Shown here one piece after another: positions 5,536 through 42,471 of a stretch of DNA of 42,694 nucleotides. Source of the DNA: Cryobacterium sp. (GTDB lineage: Bacteria; Actinomycetota; Actinomycetes; Actinomycetales; Microbacteriaceae); contig JACMQV010000268.1 in NCBI GenBank assembly GCA_014376815.1, positions 1 to 42,694 on the forward strand. Direction: 5' to 3'. Each line of letters opens with the position of its first letter. The first letter of the stretch is position 1. Below the pieces are notes generated by a model, which saw only the letters and a program-made list of their open reading frames with translations, was not told where the DNA came from and ran no database searches. Position numbers and translations under genes: made by a program.

Positions 5536-6597
5536 GTGTTCTGTATCGCCGCATTCATCGTTCTCGTATTCATGGCCGCCGTCTCGGCCCGCTACCGCCG
5601 CTACCTCGGCAAGGCGTGGAACTGCACCCTCCGCCGCGTCACCTTCCGCCCCTGCGACACGACCTTCAAACAGGACGTGAAGGACCACCTCCTCGCCCCG
5701 CTGGCCGTGCGCCGCCCGGGCCTCGTCGGCCCGGCGAGCGTGACGCTCGAGGTGCTCGCGGTGCTGGTCGTCCTGACCACGATCTGGAGCGGGTACACCG
5801 TCGTCAAGAGCGGCGTGAACCTCTACGTCTACGGCACCTGCAACAAGCAGGATTCCGCGTCCTGCAGCCTGGGTGCCGAGGCCTGCTCCATCCCCGACCA
5901 GACCCCCAGCTTCGGCGAATCCCTGGCCGAGGGCGACGTCATCGGCGCGTTCGGCAACGACTTCGCCAGCCTCGGCGAGACGTTCTCCGCGATCCCGTCC
6001 CGGATGCAGAACTGGGACGCGAAGGCCTATCTTCCGGCCAACGCCAGCTACCTGAACGCCTTCGACGCGAAGAAAGAAACCGCGCTCGAGGTCATCGACC
6101 CCGGCTGCACCTACTGCCTGCAGCTCTTCGAGAACATCGAGGAGGCCGGCTTCGCGTCGAAGCAGAACCTCAGCTACATCGCGTACCCGATCGCCTCGGC
6201 CGACGGCTACAAGTTCAAGAACTCGCTCCTCGTCACGCAGTACCTCGAGGCGCTGCGCCTCAACCCGCTCGCCGACGCGAAGACTCCCGTCGACTGGCAG
6301 ATCCTGAGCCGGATCTACACGGAAAAGAGTGACGCAGGCGTGTCCTGGCAGAGCGTGATCAACGGTGCGGAGCCGGCCGAGGCCACCGCGCTGCTGCAGG
6401 ACTGGGCCGGCGAGTTCGGCCTCAGCCCGGCACAGGTCGCCACGGTCGCATCCGTCGCCGCCTCCGACGAGGTGGCCGGCATCATCGCCGCGAACAAGGC
6501 CCTGGTCGAGGAGAGCATCCACACCGTGAAGATCCCGACGATCATCTTCGACGGACGCCGCCACGACGGCCTGGTCTCGGTCGGCGACCTGGACTAG
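5536..6597 (+). CDS. Membrane-anchored thioredoxin-fold (DsbA/DsbG-like) protein
   Basis: This encodes a 353-residue protein whose GTG start directly follows the stop of the aminotransferase gene, so translation is probably coupled. There is a hydrophobic segment at the N-terminus (IAAFIVLVFMAAV) and a second near residues 70-90 (VTLEVLAVLVVLTTIWSGY). Between them lies a conserved-looking Cys pair (WNCTLRRVTFRPC). After the second helix come more cysteines (GTCNKQDSASCSLGAEAC), then a thioredoxin-like domain with active-site motif CTYC at residues 191-194 in DPGCTYCLQLFENI and a cis-Pro region near KIPTIIFDG. It probably performs thiol-disulfide chemistry outside the membrane. The partner is unknown; the operon suggests the desulfurase-like enzyme or the copper oxidase. 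Confidence 0.7.
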   Translation: MFCIAAFIVLVFMAAVSARYRRYLGKAWNCTLRRVTFRPCDTTFKQDVKDHLLAPLAVRRPGLVGPASVTLEVLAVLVVLTTIWSGYTVVKSGVNLYVYGTCNKQDSASCSLGAEACSIPDQTPSFGESLAEGDVIGAFGNDFASLGETFSAIPSRMQNWDAKAYLPANASYLNAFDAKKETALEVIDPGCTYCLQLFENIEEAGFASKQNLSYIAYPIASADGYKFKNSLLVTQYLEALRLNPLADAKTPVDWQILSRIYTEKSDAGVSWQSVINGAEPAEATALLQDWAGEFGLSPAQVATVASVAASDEVAGIIAANKALVEESIHTVKIPTIIFDGRRHDGLVSVGDLD

Positions 6598-34008: not shown

Positions 34009-34183
34009 CGACTGGTTTTCGCAAATAGTTTCAACCTATTTAGCAATTAACCCTGTGTGGGTGTTTCAGCCTATTGGCGCGGCCCAGTCATAGCGCGGGA
34101 GCCGGTGACTCGGATACGGAGCCGTTCCAACCTAAGCTCGAAATCGTTCCAGCACCCAGGGATTTTGCCCCCAATGCTGGTGG
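34009..34183. other. AT-rich junction between core and accessory DNA
   Basis: This short spacer has runs such as AATAGTTTCAACCTATTTAGCAATTAA and is much less GC-rich than everything before it. The following 8 kb also have lower GC and mixed codon use. I see no tRNA, attachment repeat or integrase here, so the boundary is judged from composition only. Confidence 0.4.
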
Positions 34184-35614
34184 TCAGTGTTTCGATGCCG
34201 TGTTGATTTTGGCGGCGAAAGTCTTAGCTTCCATGCCTCGATTTGCACCTACGGCCACTGCCCACGAGTACAACTCGCCGTCTACGGTCATGCACAGTCC
34301 CCGTGTATCAACGGTCTTCTTCGTCTTGTCGCCAAAGATTCTGATATCCATTCCAAACATCACGTCCGCAGCGACGCGCGTGGGCGAGATCCTACGTTCG
34401 AGGCCGCCAACCGCGTCAACAAAAGCGTGTGCCCCGCGAAGTGTCTGGACCTGACCGCGAAAACTAATGGTGTCTCCACTGATTTCCAGCCCACAGAACC
34501 TCGACGGAAGTCTTTCAGCCCAAGTAGTCAGCCAATTTCCCTGAGTTCGCACCGCAACGTCCTCAATCGCGACGGAGGGATCGGGCTTCTGCAGCCCTGC
34601 GGAGTCAACCCATCCGCTGCCAGCATGATGAGAGAACATCGCAAGTGATCTCTTCGGAACGGCCCCTGCAATCGCAGCCGCGACCTTGAATGCAAAGGAC
34701 TGCCACTCGAAGTTCGAGGCACTGCCGGAGAATTGAATCGTGTTGATGTCCTTCGCAGGCTTTGCCGGGGCCGTCCAGCTCGCGACGAGATCAACGCGGA
34801 GATATCCCGCGCGCATTCCTGCTGCTGACTCGAACACCGCCCCACTCAATGCCTTCAACGGCAGTACTCGCACGTTGCGCCCGGCACGAAGCGTCAGGTT
34901 GTTCGCGTCGAGTTCTGCGCTCCCGAACGAACCCTTGATGCGAAGGGGAATGGCCACGATTGGCTGGCTCGGAGTCACGAACTGGCCGTGCGCATGCTTA
35001 CTCTCAAGAAGAACCCCGAGGGACACGGTCGCAATGGTCTGCTCTTTAGCGGCCGTGGCGAACTGCAACGAGTGCAGTCCTTGCTGCAATTGCGTAAGGA
35101 GCCGCCGCCTCTGAGTCTCCGACAGCTCGTGCTCCGTGTCGCTTTCCTGCGCTGCTTCGACCGGCGCTGTGGACTTCTCGCTCACACCGCGTGCGTTTCC
35201 GAGATCCTCGACGAGGCTCGTCTCCCCGAGGTCCAGCTCTTCCCCACCAAGTGGCTCCACACCCTCGGGCCTCGCGATTGAGGGCTGGGCCTCCCGACGG
35301 TGACCTTGGTACTTCCCGTGCACTGTGCTGCTCACATCTTGCGGGGCACGTCTCCTTACGGCATGGAAGAACACCCTCGCATCCTGCGCCTGGTCAGTAC
35401 GGAATCTGACACTTACGCGGCCCAGGCTGGTTTGAAATTGGATGGACCCGACAGTCAGAATCGTTGGCTCTGCGAATGCCAATCCAACGAGATCCTGGAA
35501 TTCAATCACCAGGACGGATGCACCAAGCGTTAATCGCTCCGCACCGCTTGTGGCCCGAATGGCTATTCCACTATCCGTTATGTCCGCGTCGCCGCCTGGC
35601 CCGTGAAAGTTCAT
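34184..35614 (-). CDS. Multi-domain PH-like (DUF4429-type) protein
   Basis: This protein of about 476 residues appears to hold three PH-like beta-barrel units. The first (residues 1-90) starts MNFHGPGGDADITDSGIAIRA, close to the DUF4429 opening. A charged Glu/Gln-rich linker of about 100 residues follows. The second unit runs from IPLRIKGSFGSAELDANN to FAFKVAAAIAG, and the third ends GLCMTVDGELYSWAVAVGAN and FAAKINTASK, resembling the C-terminal PH-like modules of actinobacterial hypothetical proteins. No signal peptide or membrane segment is seen. The ATG at 35614 starts the first domain; an in-frame GTG at 35644 with GAGG upstream is possible. The function is unknown. Codon use is less GC-biased than in the core genes. 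Confidence 0.65.
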   Translation of the reverse strand: MNFHGPGGDADITDSGIAIRATSGAERLTLGASVLVIEFQDLVGLAFAEPTILTVGSIQFQTSLGRVSVRFRTDQAQDARVFFHAVRRRAPQDVSSTVHGKYQGHRREAQPSIARPEGVEPLGGEELDLGETSLVEDLGNARGVSEKSTAPVEAAQESDTEHELSETQRRRLLTQLQQGLHSLQFATAAKEQTIATVSLGVLLESKHAHGQFVTPSQPIVAIPLRIKGSFGSAELDANNLTLRAGRNVRVLPLKALSGAVFESAAGMRAGYLRVDLVASWTAPAKPAKDINTIQFSGSASNFEWQSFAFKVAAAIAGAVPKRSLAMFSHHAGSGWVDSAGLQKPDPSVAIEDVAVRTQGNWLTTWAERLPSRFCGLEISGDTISFRGQVQTLRGAHAFVDAVGGLERRISPTRVAADVMFGMDIRIFGDKTKKTVDTRGLCMTVDGELYSWAVAVGANRGMEAKTFAAKINTASKH

Positions 35615-35644
35615 TTCTCTGCCACCCCCTGTGCCACACGACAC

Positions 35645-35760
35645 CTCGTCAGTTTAGATCGCGTCCAAAATGACGCCGTCATCGATGAGGCCGGTGCGGG
35701 GCTTCGCTAGACCGATTCGCTAACGCCCAACGGATGGAGCAGCCGACGGCAGCCTGACGA
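35645..35760. other. Spacer, nothing recognised
   Basis: This short non-coding stretch lies between the PH-like protein gene and a gene remnant. It probably contains the promoter of the PH-like gene on the minus strand, but no clear element is visible. Confidence 0.3.
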
Positions 35761-35988
35761 TTACTCCGTAGCCACTCGAATTTCCTCGAGTGTGAGTGGG
35801 TTATCGAGCTGGCGGCTCCAGTAGGCCCACCCGTCGGCGTCTTCCGCACCGTCACCTTTGGCAGCCAGGTCCGGCGTTCGGTACTCAGCGTTATCCAGAA
35901 GAATCATCGCGTCTTCAGTCAACTCTGCGATTGAGTCGGTCCTTCCATCGGTGGGGATCAGGAGAGTGCCTGGAAGTATGACTCCCGT
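35761..35988 (-). pseudogene. 5'-truncated remnant of an unrecognised gene
   Basis: A minus-strand frame of 75 sense codons with good coding character reads VILPGTLLIPTDGRTDSIA, AELTEDAMILLDNAEYRTP, GAEDADGWAYWSRQLDN and ends LTLEEIRVATE. It opens right after a stop with no start codon near the beginning; the first internal ATG is at 35907 and lacks a ribosome site. It is most likely the C-terminal end of a truncated gene, or less likely a 48-residue protein. The family is not recognised. Confidence 0.45.
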
Positions 35989-36114
35989 TTACCCCGCCCG
36001 GCGAACCTGCCCGCGCGGGCGCGTTATCTGCGACACCGCAGGTGCCTCACAACCCATACATTTCGAGACAACAACACCATCAACAACACGCCGCCACGCA
36101 AACGTCCACAACCC

Positions 36115-36163
36115 GTCTCAGAACATCCCTGAAGCCGACCATGTTCTGAGACTATTCTGAGAC
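36115..36163. promoter_or_regulatory. Candidate resolvase (res) binding site, copy 1
   Basis: GTCTCAGAAC (36115-36124) and GTTCTGAGAC (36143-36152) form a perfect 10-bp inverted repeat. A second TTCTGAGAC lies at 36155-36163, 11 bp (one helical turn) after the first. The site ends 9 bp before the resolvase start, where serine resolvases normally bind and autoregulate. Confidence 0.6.
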
Positions 36164-36172
36164 GATAGACCG

Positions 36173-36379
36173 ATGGTCACCACACACGTCACCCTCGTCG
36201 GCTACGCGCGCGTTTCCACCCACAGCCAAGACGCCACGATGCGACAAGACGCACTCATCCGTGATGAAGGTTTGCACGACACAGACTTCTGGGGTTATGG
36301 CCTTGAATCCGTTCTACCAGAGTGTGGTTGGGCGCCCGCCGCGGGCCGGCCCGCGGCACCGTCACCCGCCCGGTGTTAG
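36173..36379 (+). pseudogene. Truncated copy of serine resolvase gene
   Basis: The first 28 codons (TTHVTLVGYARVSTHSQD, catalytic Ser included) are almost identical to the intact resolvase at 37153. After about 36257 the similarity stops and the frame runs on into unrelated sequence to a stop at 36379. The upstream site is copied as well, so 36132-36257 and 37112-37237 form a direct repeat. The rest of the catalytic and DNA-binding domains is missing. Confidence 0.8.
36338..36357. repeat. 20-bp perfect palindrome upstream of chlorite dismutase gene
   Basis: GCCGCGGGCCGGCCCGCGGC is fully self-complementary. It lies about 58 bp before the chlorite dismutase start and downstream of the resolvase fragment. 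It could stop read-through from the fragment or bind a regulator. Confidence 0.6.
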
Positions 36380-36414
36380 CGTCAGGATGACCTATACCGT
36401 CATTAGGAGCACCC

Positions 36415-36999
36415 ATGACCGACGTTTTGCCCGTAACCTTCACCGCTGGTACCACCGGCCTATGGCGTATCGAACGCATCACCACAGTCACCGGTGACGG
36501 GCTCCCCGCCGCCGCCCGACTACTCGTCGAGGAGGAAGCACCCGTCGCCGGACCGAGGGTTCCTCCGACGGTGGCGACGAGTGCTCCGGGTTGGGTTCTG
36601 TGCGGCACGGTCAGCAACCAGCGGTACACAACCGCCGCCGAACTGGCTCTGCTGAACGCGCGGTCTCCGGCCCTCGGCCGGCCAGGTGCCACCGTCGCCT
36701 CCCTCATTCCAATCACAAAATCACAGGCGTGGTGGGAAATGGCCCAGGACGAACGGCGCGGCATTCTTGAGGAAACCAGCCATCACATCCGCCGCTCGAT
36801 GGACTACCTGCCCGCCGTGGCCCGGCGGCTGCACCACTGTCGGGACCTCGGCGGGCCGTTCGACTTTCTGACGTGGTTCGAGTTCGCGCCCGAGAACGCA
36901 GCGGCTTTCGACGATCTCCTCGGTGAGCTCCGAAACACCGAGGAATGGACCTTCATCGAGCGCGAAGTCGAGGTGCGCGTGGAGCGCGCGAGCGTGTAA
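36415..36999 (+). CDS. cld: Chlorite dismutase, short (lineage II) type
   Basis: This 194-residue heme protein of the chlorite dismutase family splits chlorite to chloride and O2. Alignment by memory to the short dimeric enzyme of Nitrobacter winogradskyi is close through SLIPITKSQAWWEMAQDERR, EETSHHIRRSMDYLPAVAR, HHCRDLGGPFDFLTWFEF and RNTEEWTFIEREVEVRV. The proximal heme His is His124 and the distal Arg is Arg137, matching His114 and Arg127 there. It is not a HemQ-type coproheme decarboxylase, which is longer and lacks the distal Arg. GGAG lies 5 nt before the ATG. It sits alone between a truncated and a complete resolvase copy, so it was probably acquired by transfer. Confidence 0.88.
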   Translation: MTDVLPVTFTAGTTGLWRIERITTVTGDGLPAAARLLVEEEAPVAGPRVPPTVATSAPGWVLCGTVSNQRYTTAAELALLNARSPALGRPGATVASLIPITKSQAWWEMAQDERRGILEETSHHIRRSMDYLPAVARRLHHCRDLGGPFDFLTWFEFAPENAAAFDDLLGELRNTEEWTFIEREVEVRVERASV

Positions 37000-37111
37000 G
37001 CGGTCCACCCCACCTCGGAACGGGCCACTTCACGGCGCCTCGATGACCCCGCGACGCGGCAACACGCGCCACACGAGTCCCACCGAACCGAAACAATGAA
37101 GAAGATAGCTA

Positions 37112-37143
37112 AAGTCGACGAGGTTCTGAGACTATTCTGAGAC
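37112..37143. promoter_or_regulatory. Candidate resolvase (res) binding site, copy 2
   Basis: GTTCTGAGAC (37123-37132) and TTCTGAGAC (37135-37143) repeat copy 1, 980 bp further on in the same orientation. The upstream GTCTCAGAAC arm of copy 1 is absent here. It ends 9 bp before the ATG of the intact resolvase gene. Confidence 0.55.
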
Positions 37144-37152
37144 GATAGACGG

Positions 37153-37725
37153 ATGGCCACCACACACGTCACCCTCGTCGGCTACGCCCGCGTTTCCACC
37201 CACAGCCAAGACACCACAATGCAACAAGACGCACTCACGTCCGTCGGCTGTGGGCGGATATTCACCGACACCATCTCCAGCCGTGCACCCAGCCGGCCCG
37301 GGCTTATCGCTGCGCTCGACTACCTCCGACAAGGCGACACTCTCTGCGTCTGGAAACTGGACCGCCTCGGCCGATCCGTCAAAGAAGTCCTCACCATCGC
37401 CGACGACCTCCACGACAAACACATCGCCGTCCGGATCCTCACCGGCACACTCTCCGGAACCTACCGACCCACCGGAGAAGGCAAATTCTTCTTCACCATG
37501 ATGGCAGCGTTCGCCGAACTTGAACGTGACATGATTCGCGAACGCACCCTCGCGGGCCTCACCACCGCCCGTGCCCAGGGCCGAGTCGGTGGGCGCCCGA
37601 CCGTCGTAACACCCGACACGCTCGCAGCGGCCAAAGCCCGACAACAACGCGGCGAAACCCCCACCCAAATCGCCAAGGCCCTCGGCGTCTCACGAGCGAC
37701 GATCTACCGCCACCTCAACCCTTAG
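37153..37725 (+). CDS. Serine recombinase/resolvase
   Basis: This 190-residue small serine recombinase is complete. The catalytic Ser15 is in GYARVSTHSQD. The Arg-rich active site includes LDRLGRSVKEV, and the E-helix is AELERDMIRERTLAGL. The C-terminal helix-turn-helix is TPTQIAKALGVSRATIYRHL. The length fits TnpR-type resolvases of Tn3-family elements or DNA invertases. No transposase gene is in the window. TTCTGAGAC repeats directly upstream are its likely binding site. Codon use (CACC/CCGAC-rich) is slightly different from the core genes. Confidence 0.93.
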   Translation: MATTHVTLVGYARVSTHSQDTTMQQDALTSVGCGRIFTDTISSRAPSRPGLIAALDYLRQGDTLCVWKLDRLGRSVKEVLTIADDLHDKHIAVRILTGTLSGTYRPTGEGKFFFTMMAAFAELERDMIRERTLAGLTTARAQGRVGGRPTVVTPDTLAAAKARQQRGETPTQIAKALGVSRATIYRHLNP

Positions 37726-37841
37726 CGCCAACCACCGTTCCATTACTGGCCAGACCCCGAGAGGTGCACTCATGCGTGACCGTGCTGAAATCTCTTTTGG
37801 TTCTCGGTCATCATGACGAACCTCCGCGACCTCATCCTCGG

Positions 37842-38408
37842 TCACCCGTCCCAGCCGCGCACAAGTTCAAGTCGCGGTCGGTCATCAGCCCCAACGCCGA
37901 GTTGCACTGTCGTGCGGTACCGACCGCTCTCCAGGTTCCAGGTGGCGTCGACTCGGGCAAATCCATCGGACGATGCACCTGATGGCGCCAATGCGAGCCA
38001 CGCGGGCAGATCCGGCATCGGCGACCCCTCGGGCCAACGAACAGTCGCCCGGTCCGATCCGGAAAACAGGAACTGGCTAGCCCCGGAGTCGATCACTTCT
38101 GCACCGGGCGGGAACCTGACTCTAGAAAGCTTCTGGACGAACTCCACGTTGAGGGAGACACACCACGATGGGTCAAGAATGAAGCAATCACCCTTTGGTG
38201 TTCCGCTGCCATCAGAGATTGGAGGGAAGACCATCACACGCCCCATGAAGTACATCCCGATGAGGCCGACAACCGCCAAGCAGGCGAGGGTGACAAACAG
38301 GGCCAGCTTGCCGAGCCAGGACCCGCCCCCGGTCGGGACCTGTCGGGCGGGTTCCCCCAAGCCGAGGGCGTCCAACCCCACAGCTCCACCCGCGTTGTTT
38401 TCATCCAC
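37842..38408 (-). CDS. Single-pass membrane protein of unknown function
   Basis: This is a 188-residue protein. A Gly/Ala-rich cytoplasmic N-terminus of about 30 residues leads into one membrane helix (LALFVTLACLAVVGLIGMYF), then an outer domain with a likely disulfide in DCFILDPSWCVSL and a beta-rich C-terminal part (SRVRFPPGAEVIDSGASQF to YRTTVQLGVG). I do not recognise a family. The start is GTG at 38408; there is no strong ribosome site. The stop-proximal end faces the resolvase gene convergently. Confidence 0.6.
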   Translation of the reverse strand: MDENNAGGAVGLDALGLGEPARQVPTGGGSWLGKLALFVTLACLAVVGLIGMYFMGRVMVFPPISDGSGTPKGDCFILDPSWCVSLNVEFVQKLSRVRFPPGAEVIDSGASQFLFSGSDRATVRWPEGSPMPDLPAWLALAPSGASSDGFARVDATWNLESGRYRTTVQLGVGADDRPRLELVRGWDG

Positions 38409-38724
38409 GATCGCAGTCTAGGCACTCTGACCATGTCCACATGCCGGGACGACGTCTGCTCGTCGACGACAAATACGGTTGCCTTCACGCGGCCCCCAAG
38501 CCGGAGGTCTCCTGGCGCTTAGTTTGCGCGAAAAGGGGAGAGCGAGTGGCTGATGGTCGCGTCCAAGTTCCGCAGGGGAACCCTCACTGACACTGCGACC
38601 GCGGTCTCGCGAACTCGCCGCCCCTACGATCGGAGTCTCGCGAACCGGTCTCGATTGAAAAATTGTTGGCAGAAAAAGGTGACGTGGTTGACCGGCCATT
38701 ATTTCTTCTGCCGCGTTGCGTTGG
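38409..38724. other. Non-coding stretch with an 11-bp direct repeat
   Basis: I see no convincing gene in these 316 bp. GTCTCGCGAAC occurs at 38604-38614 and 38635-38645, 31 bp apart. An AT-richer patch follows (TTGAAAAATTGTTGGCAGAAAAAG). It may hold the promoter of the membrane protein gene on the minus strand. Confidence 0.4.
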
Positions 38725-42333: not shown

Positions 42334-42471
42334 AACGCCAATGCTGGCGACGCAAGCAGGCGTGGACATCCCCCGACGTCCGACAACCGGCCAATACAGA
42401 ACCTATTGGCAGACAGAGCCGTCTTTCGGATCAGACACGCCGGGGATCCGACGCGCCACTGACGGCGGTAT

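Follow-up and report, generated by a model that had tools for sequence, protein, structure and literature searches.

A chlorite dismutase gene between direct repeats in Cryobacterium: probable chromosomal insertion into the decayed right end of a Tn3-family transposon

We examined a 42,694-nucleotide stretch of DNA from Cryobacterium sp. (assembly GCA_014376815.1, contig JACMQV010000268.1; the window), in which a chlorite dismutase gene (cld) lies between two direct repeats, each carrying the start of a serine resolvase gene (tnpR). An earlier note on this DNA had proposed that the resolvase could excise the gene as a 980-bp circle. The arrangement is probably explained instead by a decayed right end of a Tn3-family transposon that received an insert of ~870 bp of chromosomal DNA together with a 114-bp duplication, and we do not expect excision of cld by the resolvase. 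The locus has the look of a scar left by a single insertion, not of a resolvase-excisable cassette.

The two co-directional repeats were confirmed at 36120–36257 and 37100–37237, 91% identical and exactly 980 bp apart. When trimmed against relatives, the part most likely common by descent was reduced to 114 bp with 6 mismatches, at 36144–36257 (copy A) and 37124–37237 (copy B), both on the forward strand. Copy A comprises two TTCTGAGAC motifs, a leader, and the first 85 nt of tnpR, where the gene is broken; the same tnpR begins in copy B and continues there as a 190-aa resolvase, so that only the second resolvase is intact, as had been noted. Exact TTCTGAGAC sites were present in each repeat as described (36144 and 36155; 37124 and 37135), and one inverted copy at 36115 was found in addition. 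With one mismatch allowed, seven occurrences of TTCTGAGAC were found against 6.3 expected, the motif alone being not above chance; it gains meaning because of its arrangement and its conservation in relatives. Comparison with three other Cryobacterium copies revealed two derived bases common to A and B, and private changes numbering five in A and at most one in B. These shared bases, thin evidence at two sites only, suggest that A and B are sister copies, in contradiction to an origin of the two 5' ends from unrelated resolvase families.

The intact tnpR (37153–37725, forward strand) encodes a serine resolvase (PF00239, E 2.6e-40), whose closest solved matches were entries titled DNA-invertase, followed by gamma-delta resolvase. 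Its Ser15 aligns with Ser10 of gamma-delta resolvase, a residue with a catalytic role. The dN/dS was 0.11 against each of the three Cryobacterium copies, and that of cld was 0.19 against its closest relative (genome G015), suggesting that both genes have been constrained over at least part of their divergence. The last tnpR codons overlap a 38-bp terminal inverted repeat of Tn3-family type, a right end located at 37721–37758 on the reverse strand and running past 37725, where the region of the earlier note stops. The repeat matches Cryobacterium locus L015 (2581–2618) exactly, recurs, little altered, after this tnpR in other actinobacteria, and is bordered on the outside by the five bases GAGAG. 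No left inverted repeat was present in the window within 12 mismatches (the next best, with 13, was at 5869), and no second one in the genome assembly within 3 mismatches of the pattern used. No match to Tn3 transposase (PF01526) was found in this incomplete genome, the same search finding it in 2 of 14 control genomes. The assembly amounts to 3.1 Mb in 301 contigs, of which the window is contig 169, with 87.5% completeness and 6% estimated contamination; because it is incomplete, its unsampled parts could contain the transposase, the other inverted repeat or the TrkA-C gene (see below) that we did not find.

Among relatives of this end, two facing inverted repeats surround tnpA both in L023 from Arthrobacter, with the 5-bp sequence CTTTA on both outsides, and in L048 from Cryobacterium PH29-G1 (tnpR incomplete), with TAGTC on both outsides; matching 5-bp sequences outside the repeats also occur in L044 (AGCGT) and L064 (AGACC). 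Directly ahead of res, L015 has a Tn3 transposase gene (PF01526), C. levicorallinum (L004/L016) has tniQ (PF06527), and genome G016 (L005/L017) has a tniQ-like gene that scores 25.2 against a Pfam cut-off of 27. Presence of res-tnpR behind a tniQ-type gene in L016 and L017 suggests that such ends are common to different transposon types. In Subtercola vilae (L020, 4888–6582), a single-passenger element of the same family carries, between its left and right repeats, a lone short-chain dehydrogenase gene followed by res and tnpR; it has no transposase and no matching target duplication. The window resembles Tn3-family transposons in having res upstream of tnpR, site I distal and a terminal repeat of the right type, and its relatives carry tnpA and 5-bp target duplications. 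By contrast, the window itself has neither tnpA nor a left repeat, and its res/tnpR is interrupted by a chromosomal segment; it holds a remnant, the right end, and not a complete member of the family.

Next, we asked how much of res each repeat contains, using a res profile built from the DNA upstream of tnpR in 28 other loci, with the window left out. In copy A the profile matched 36040–36176 over model positions 25–163 of 163 (E 2.8e-22), delimiting a complete res of a Tn3-family resolvase at 36040–36172 (forward strand); the earlier view that the repeats are resolvase and res sequence was thus correct, and copy A is a genuine res by profile. In copy B the match was confined to 37106–37155, model positions 112–162 of 163 only (E 1.6e-6), and the one further significant match in the window came from the palindromic part of copy A read on the opposite strand. 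A 26-bp site I matrix, made from other loci with the window again left out, gave its highest scores in the window at 36044–36069, with 18.7 and 18.6 on the two strands against 11.9 for the runner-up. This sequence, two inverted half-sites on the forward strand, is taken as crossover site I of copy A on comparative grounds rather than from footprinting. The accessory resolvase motifs of copy A follow at 36115–36163 (forward strand), arranged as GTCTCAGAA, 20 bp, and two tandem TTCTGAGAC. Copy B retains the two tandem TTCTGAGAC beside tnpR, that is, the tnpR-proximal part of res only, and lacks site I and the left two thirds or so of res. The matrix scan detected no site-I-like sequence between 36990 and copy B, where the highest score was −3.8. 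An upstream extension of copy B's res did not rise above shuffled sequences (135 of 500 reached the score), and the DNA upstream of copy B aligned with cld-flanking DNA of G015. Two further site-I-like scores, at 42378 and 42581, lay outside any full res match and were rejected. By these profile and matrix comparisons, the window contains one complete res, in copy A, and not two.

These results bear directly on the proposal that the co-directional sites recombine to release a 980-bp circle carrying cld, which re-inserts at res sites. The same-orientation repeats, the intact resolvase, the conserved motifs in both copies and the complete res of copy A all fit that proposal, and a serine resolvase with its cognate res is predicted from the sequence. 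However, Tn3 resolvase is described as needing catalytically active subunits at site I (PMC9943657), and copy B is without it. By the rules of the Tn3 family, copy B would be unable to take part in site-specific recombination; because it has no crossover site, excision of cld by the resolvase is not to be expected, and we consider a resolvase-mobile cassette highly improbable.

Site I of copy A nevertheless may carry the trace of a different recombination event. Its right 13 bp are identical to other Cryobacterium copies and its left 13 bp are not, and the exact identity to L017–L019 starts at TACATTTCGAGAC, the right half of the site. The left half is still half-site-like, 0.5% of the 13-mers in the window scoring as high. 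In blastn comparisons, the alignment of copy A with L017 started at 36057, beside the center of site I, and those with L015 and L016 extended to 36048 with mismatches. Module exchange at res site I between Tn3-family transposons has been described (PMC7157771), and as in the cases described there, the identity of copy A to the Cryobacterium copies stops at the site I center; in contrast to them, copy A has no assigned partner, and cld itself is not at site I. The left flank of copy A was probably exchanged by the resolvase at site I, an event that would concern the DNA to the left of the element and not cld. A 68-bp stretch, 35982–36049, was matched at 76% in genome G022 (L121; E 2.5e-6 per genome), with no res beside it; the matched stretch stops within the left half-site of site I and may be a trace of the exchange partner.

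The divergent left half of site I could also be read as a sign that two separate Tn3-family insertions flanked cld, and that later deletions spared res and the tnpR start on the left and a 5'-truncated res with tnpR on the right. Such elements do occur in the genus. Two insertions are nevertheless unlikely: the end points of both deletions would need to fall in roughly one and the same stretch of 114 bp, A and B resemble sister copies, and the surroundings of copy A retain neither an inverted repeat nor a transposase.

The favored explanation, insertion of chromosomal DNA into a single res/tnpR, draws on comparison of the segment between the repeats with relatives of cld. Such relatives (E ≤ 1e-20) were present in 8 of 57 genomes of the genus, the window's own included, and thus in seven besides it. 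The closest, G015, has a cld segment in common with the window from 36320 to 37126 (forward strand; 92.9% identity in an 812-bp alignment), and no res, tnpR or tnpA was found in the 20 kb around its cld. The cld of the closest relative is also free of the repeats, which the earlier note had named as an outcome that would speak against mobility. The G015 DNA runs parallel to the window as far as GAGGTTC, after which the window continues with TTCTGAGAC; since G015 carries the segment without res/tnpR, the right junction is placed at or just left of the first TTCTGAGAC of copy B. This edge is slightly blurred: of the 22 bases that precede 37124, 19 agree with G015, 16 with the res of L015 and L016, 15 with copy A and 14 with L017. 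When copy B was first aligned to L015 and L016, the alignments began at 37102 rather than 37124, and the res profile match begins at 37106, both of which count against the main explanation. Taken together, the comparisons locate the right junction to within ~20 bp, in the range 37102–37126 and most likely at its right end.

At the left edge, 36255–36293 (reverse strand) resembles, by a short, weak match, the early codons of a TrkA-C-domain gene, which we take to be KhtT-like. The same gene was matched in six other genomes (299 searched, the window's own included), at best with 87% identity over 39 bp (E 5.3e-7), and the match to the TrkA-C gene (PF02080) standing divergently beside cld in genome G018 (L109) was 86% over 28 bp (E 0.004). 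These matches suggest, less firmly than the comparison that places the right junction, that the gene remnant is the left edge of the insert. No TrkA-C gene was found elsewhere in the window's own genome, which says little as that genome is incomplete. In G018, cld (L109, 9680–10158) adjoins the TrkA-C and Na/H-exchanger genes; it matches in two reading frames without approximately the first 29 residues and looks broken. The comparisons at the two edges support an insert of ~870 bp inside res/tnpR, comprising the TrkA-C gene remnant, cld and downstream DNA. A search for the empty site, scoring the best five candidates per genome, returned no match to the left flank (34064–36060) in the 56 other genomes of the genus apart from the 68-bp match in G022, and none to the right flank (37750–38561); both flanks together were not found in any of the 57 genomes of the genus, the window's own included, which counts against the main explanation. 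A tRNA-anchored island was considered and rejected, there being no tRNA in the window.

Mis-assembly was also considered, with cld as the bridge between two resolvase copies from a mixed metagenome, and the 301 contigs and estimated contamination leave room for it. However, the longest exact match between copies A and B is 30 bp, which makes a k-mer mis-join unlikely, if still conceivable; the outer junctions have only short strings in common, and the cld DNA and the resolvase DNA both match Cryobacterium at 92–94%. An assembly artefact therefore has very little probability in our estimate.

The inserted gene (36415–36999, forward strand) encodes a short, clade-2-type chlorite dismutase of 194 aa (PF06778, 31.7 bits against a cut-off of 25). 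Its best solved relative was 3qpi, titled Chlorite Dismutase (196.7 bits), followed by the short Clds 9gtj and 5k8z. His124 and Arg137 align with His114 and Arg127 of clade-2 Clds, described as heme-ligating and catalytic, respectively (PMC7931450), and the gene is complete-looking with its predicted heme His and distal Arg in place, as first reported. In the Cyanothece Cld, Gln74 hydrogen-bonds the catalytic Arg, and the position has been studied by mutagenesis (PMC7931450). Of 11 aligned sequences, eight have Gln at this position; the window Cld, L107 and L108 have Ser. Presence of the same Ser in the closest Cryobacterium Clds (L107, 9906–10490; L108, 9945–10523) marks it as a natural variant. 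The protein resembles clade-2 (lineage 2, short) Clds in length, proximal His and distal Arg, and differs from the Cyanothece Cld in having Ser instead of Gln74; the label clade-2-type was chosen because of this replacement, one substitution alone being no reason to leave the clade. The enzyme is presumably an ordinary detoxifier of chlorite or another oxidant. Upstream of cld, at 36374–36404, TTAGCGTC and ATACCGT-like strings are kept, as judged by eye, in L107 and the more distant L108, and may be promoter elements.

To examine whether the arrangement recurs, we surveyed 84 resolvase loci (the best 80 of 106 together with L008, L015, L016 and L017; L015/L018 and L016/L019 are the same places) and 10 cld loci of 3.5 to 20 kb, comprising seven from Cryobacterium, two from the 527 plasmid records with a cld match, and one from another genome of the class. 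Among the 84 resolvase loci, which include the best 80 of 106, none contained cld (E ≤ 1e-3), a second co-directional res (E ≤ 0.001), or other cargo between the same repeats; a res match of any kind was present in 34, of which 28 had built the profile. L046 was the sole locus with two same-strand res matches, both on the reverse strand within its single res, a double match that is due to the palindromic parts of res. Neither res, window-type tnpR nor tnpA was found in any of the 10 cld loci, and the two plasmid loci had IS transposases beside cld. Within a set of 33 loci, extra tnpR-like stretches were seen in L017, L018, L029, L032, L035, L043 and L047, mostly 3' parts or other resolvases, and none of the 33 had a second tnpR 5' end followed by cargo as in the window. 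In this sample the arrangement was therefore seen once, which speaks against a mobile cassette and gives the resolvase-cld neighborhood of the earlier note no counterpart. We also considered that the duplication and the short shared strings at the junctions may reflect a recurrent process in which Tn3-family res-tnpR ends capture chromosomal genes one at a time. A 980-bp cld circle, including 114 bp of res/tnpR, would then have integrated at the resident res-tnpR and could leave through the repeats with the help of resolvase-bound half-sites; we hold this to be very unlikely.

The proposed history would thus begin in a Cryobacterium chromosome with a decayed Tn3-family transposon, of which the right-hand end with res, tnpR and the terminal repeat is present. 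Chromosomal DNA of ~870 bp would have entered res/tnpR, with 114 bp of res/tnpR duplicated on both sides; the alternative offered in the earlier note, insertion into the resolvase 5' end, is supported by the comparison with relatives. We infer that the insertion was illegitimate from the short strings common to both sides at each junction. Two routes, indistinguishable on this sequence, would serve: a staggered break may have been repaired by fill-in, or a circular molecule that held the segment plus 114 bp of res/tnpR may have integrated through a single crossover. A duplication of 114 bp is long for break fill-in, which counts against the main explanation. The five private changes of copy A and at most one of copy B fit duplication at insertion, after which the broken copy A would have decayed. 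Loss of cld, if any, would be possible by homologous recombination between the 114-bp repeats, leaving one res and one whole tnpR.

Several known systems resemble parts of this locus. TIME-RES and TIME-COMP1 are described as tnpA-less Tn3-derived elements with tnpR, together with res in TIME-RES and a chromosomal-type gene in TIME-COMP1 (PMC4133298); the window likewise keeps res-tnpR with a Tn3 end and no transposase, and L020 is built in the same way, but unlike the elements described there the window has one inverted repeat and no recognizable target duplication. Movement of cld between genera, on composite transposons, islands and transposase-linked neighborhoods, is already on record (PMC9751292), whereas the carrier in the window is what remains of a Tn3-family res-tnpR end. 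In the literature searched, no paper combined chlorite dismutase, transposon and resolvase, and to that search the combination of cld with a Tn3-family resolvase is new as an instance, not as a kind. Collectively, the locus indicates that a chromosomal fragment inside a transposon remnant can mimic a recombinase-flanked cassette, and that a distinguishing test is whether the crossover site I is present in each repeat. Were cld in fact moved by the resolvase, resolution systems of the Tn3 family would have to be counted among the known ways in which single genes travel, and if the gene-capture reading were true, res-tnpR ends would be general gene-capture points.
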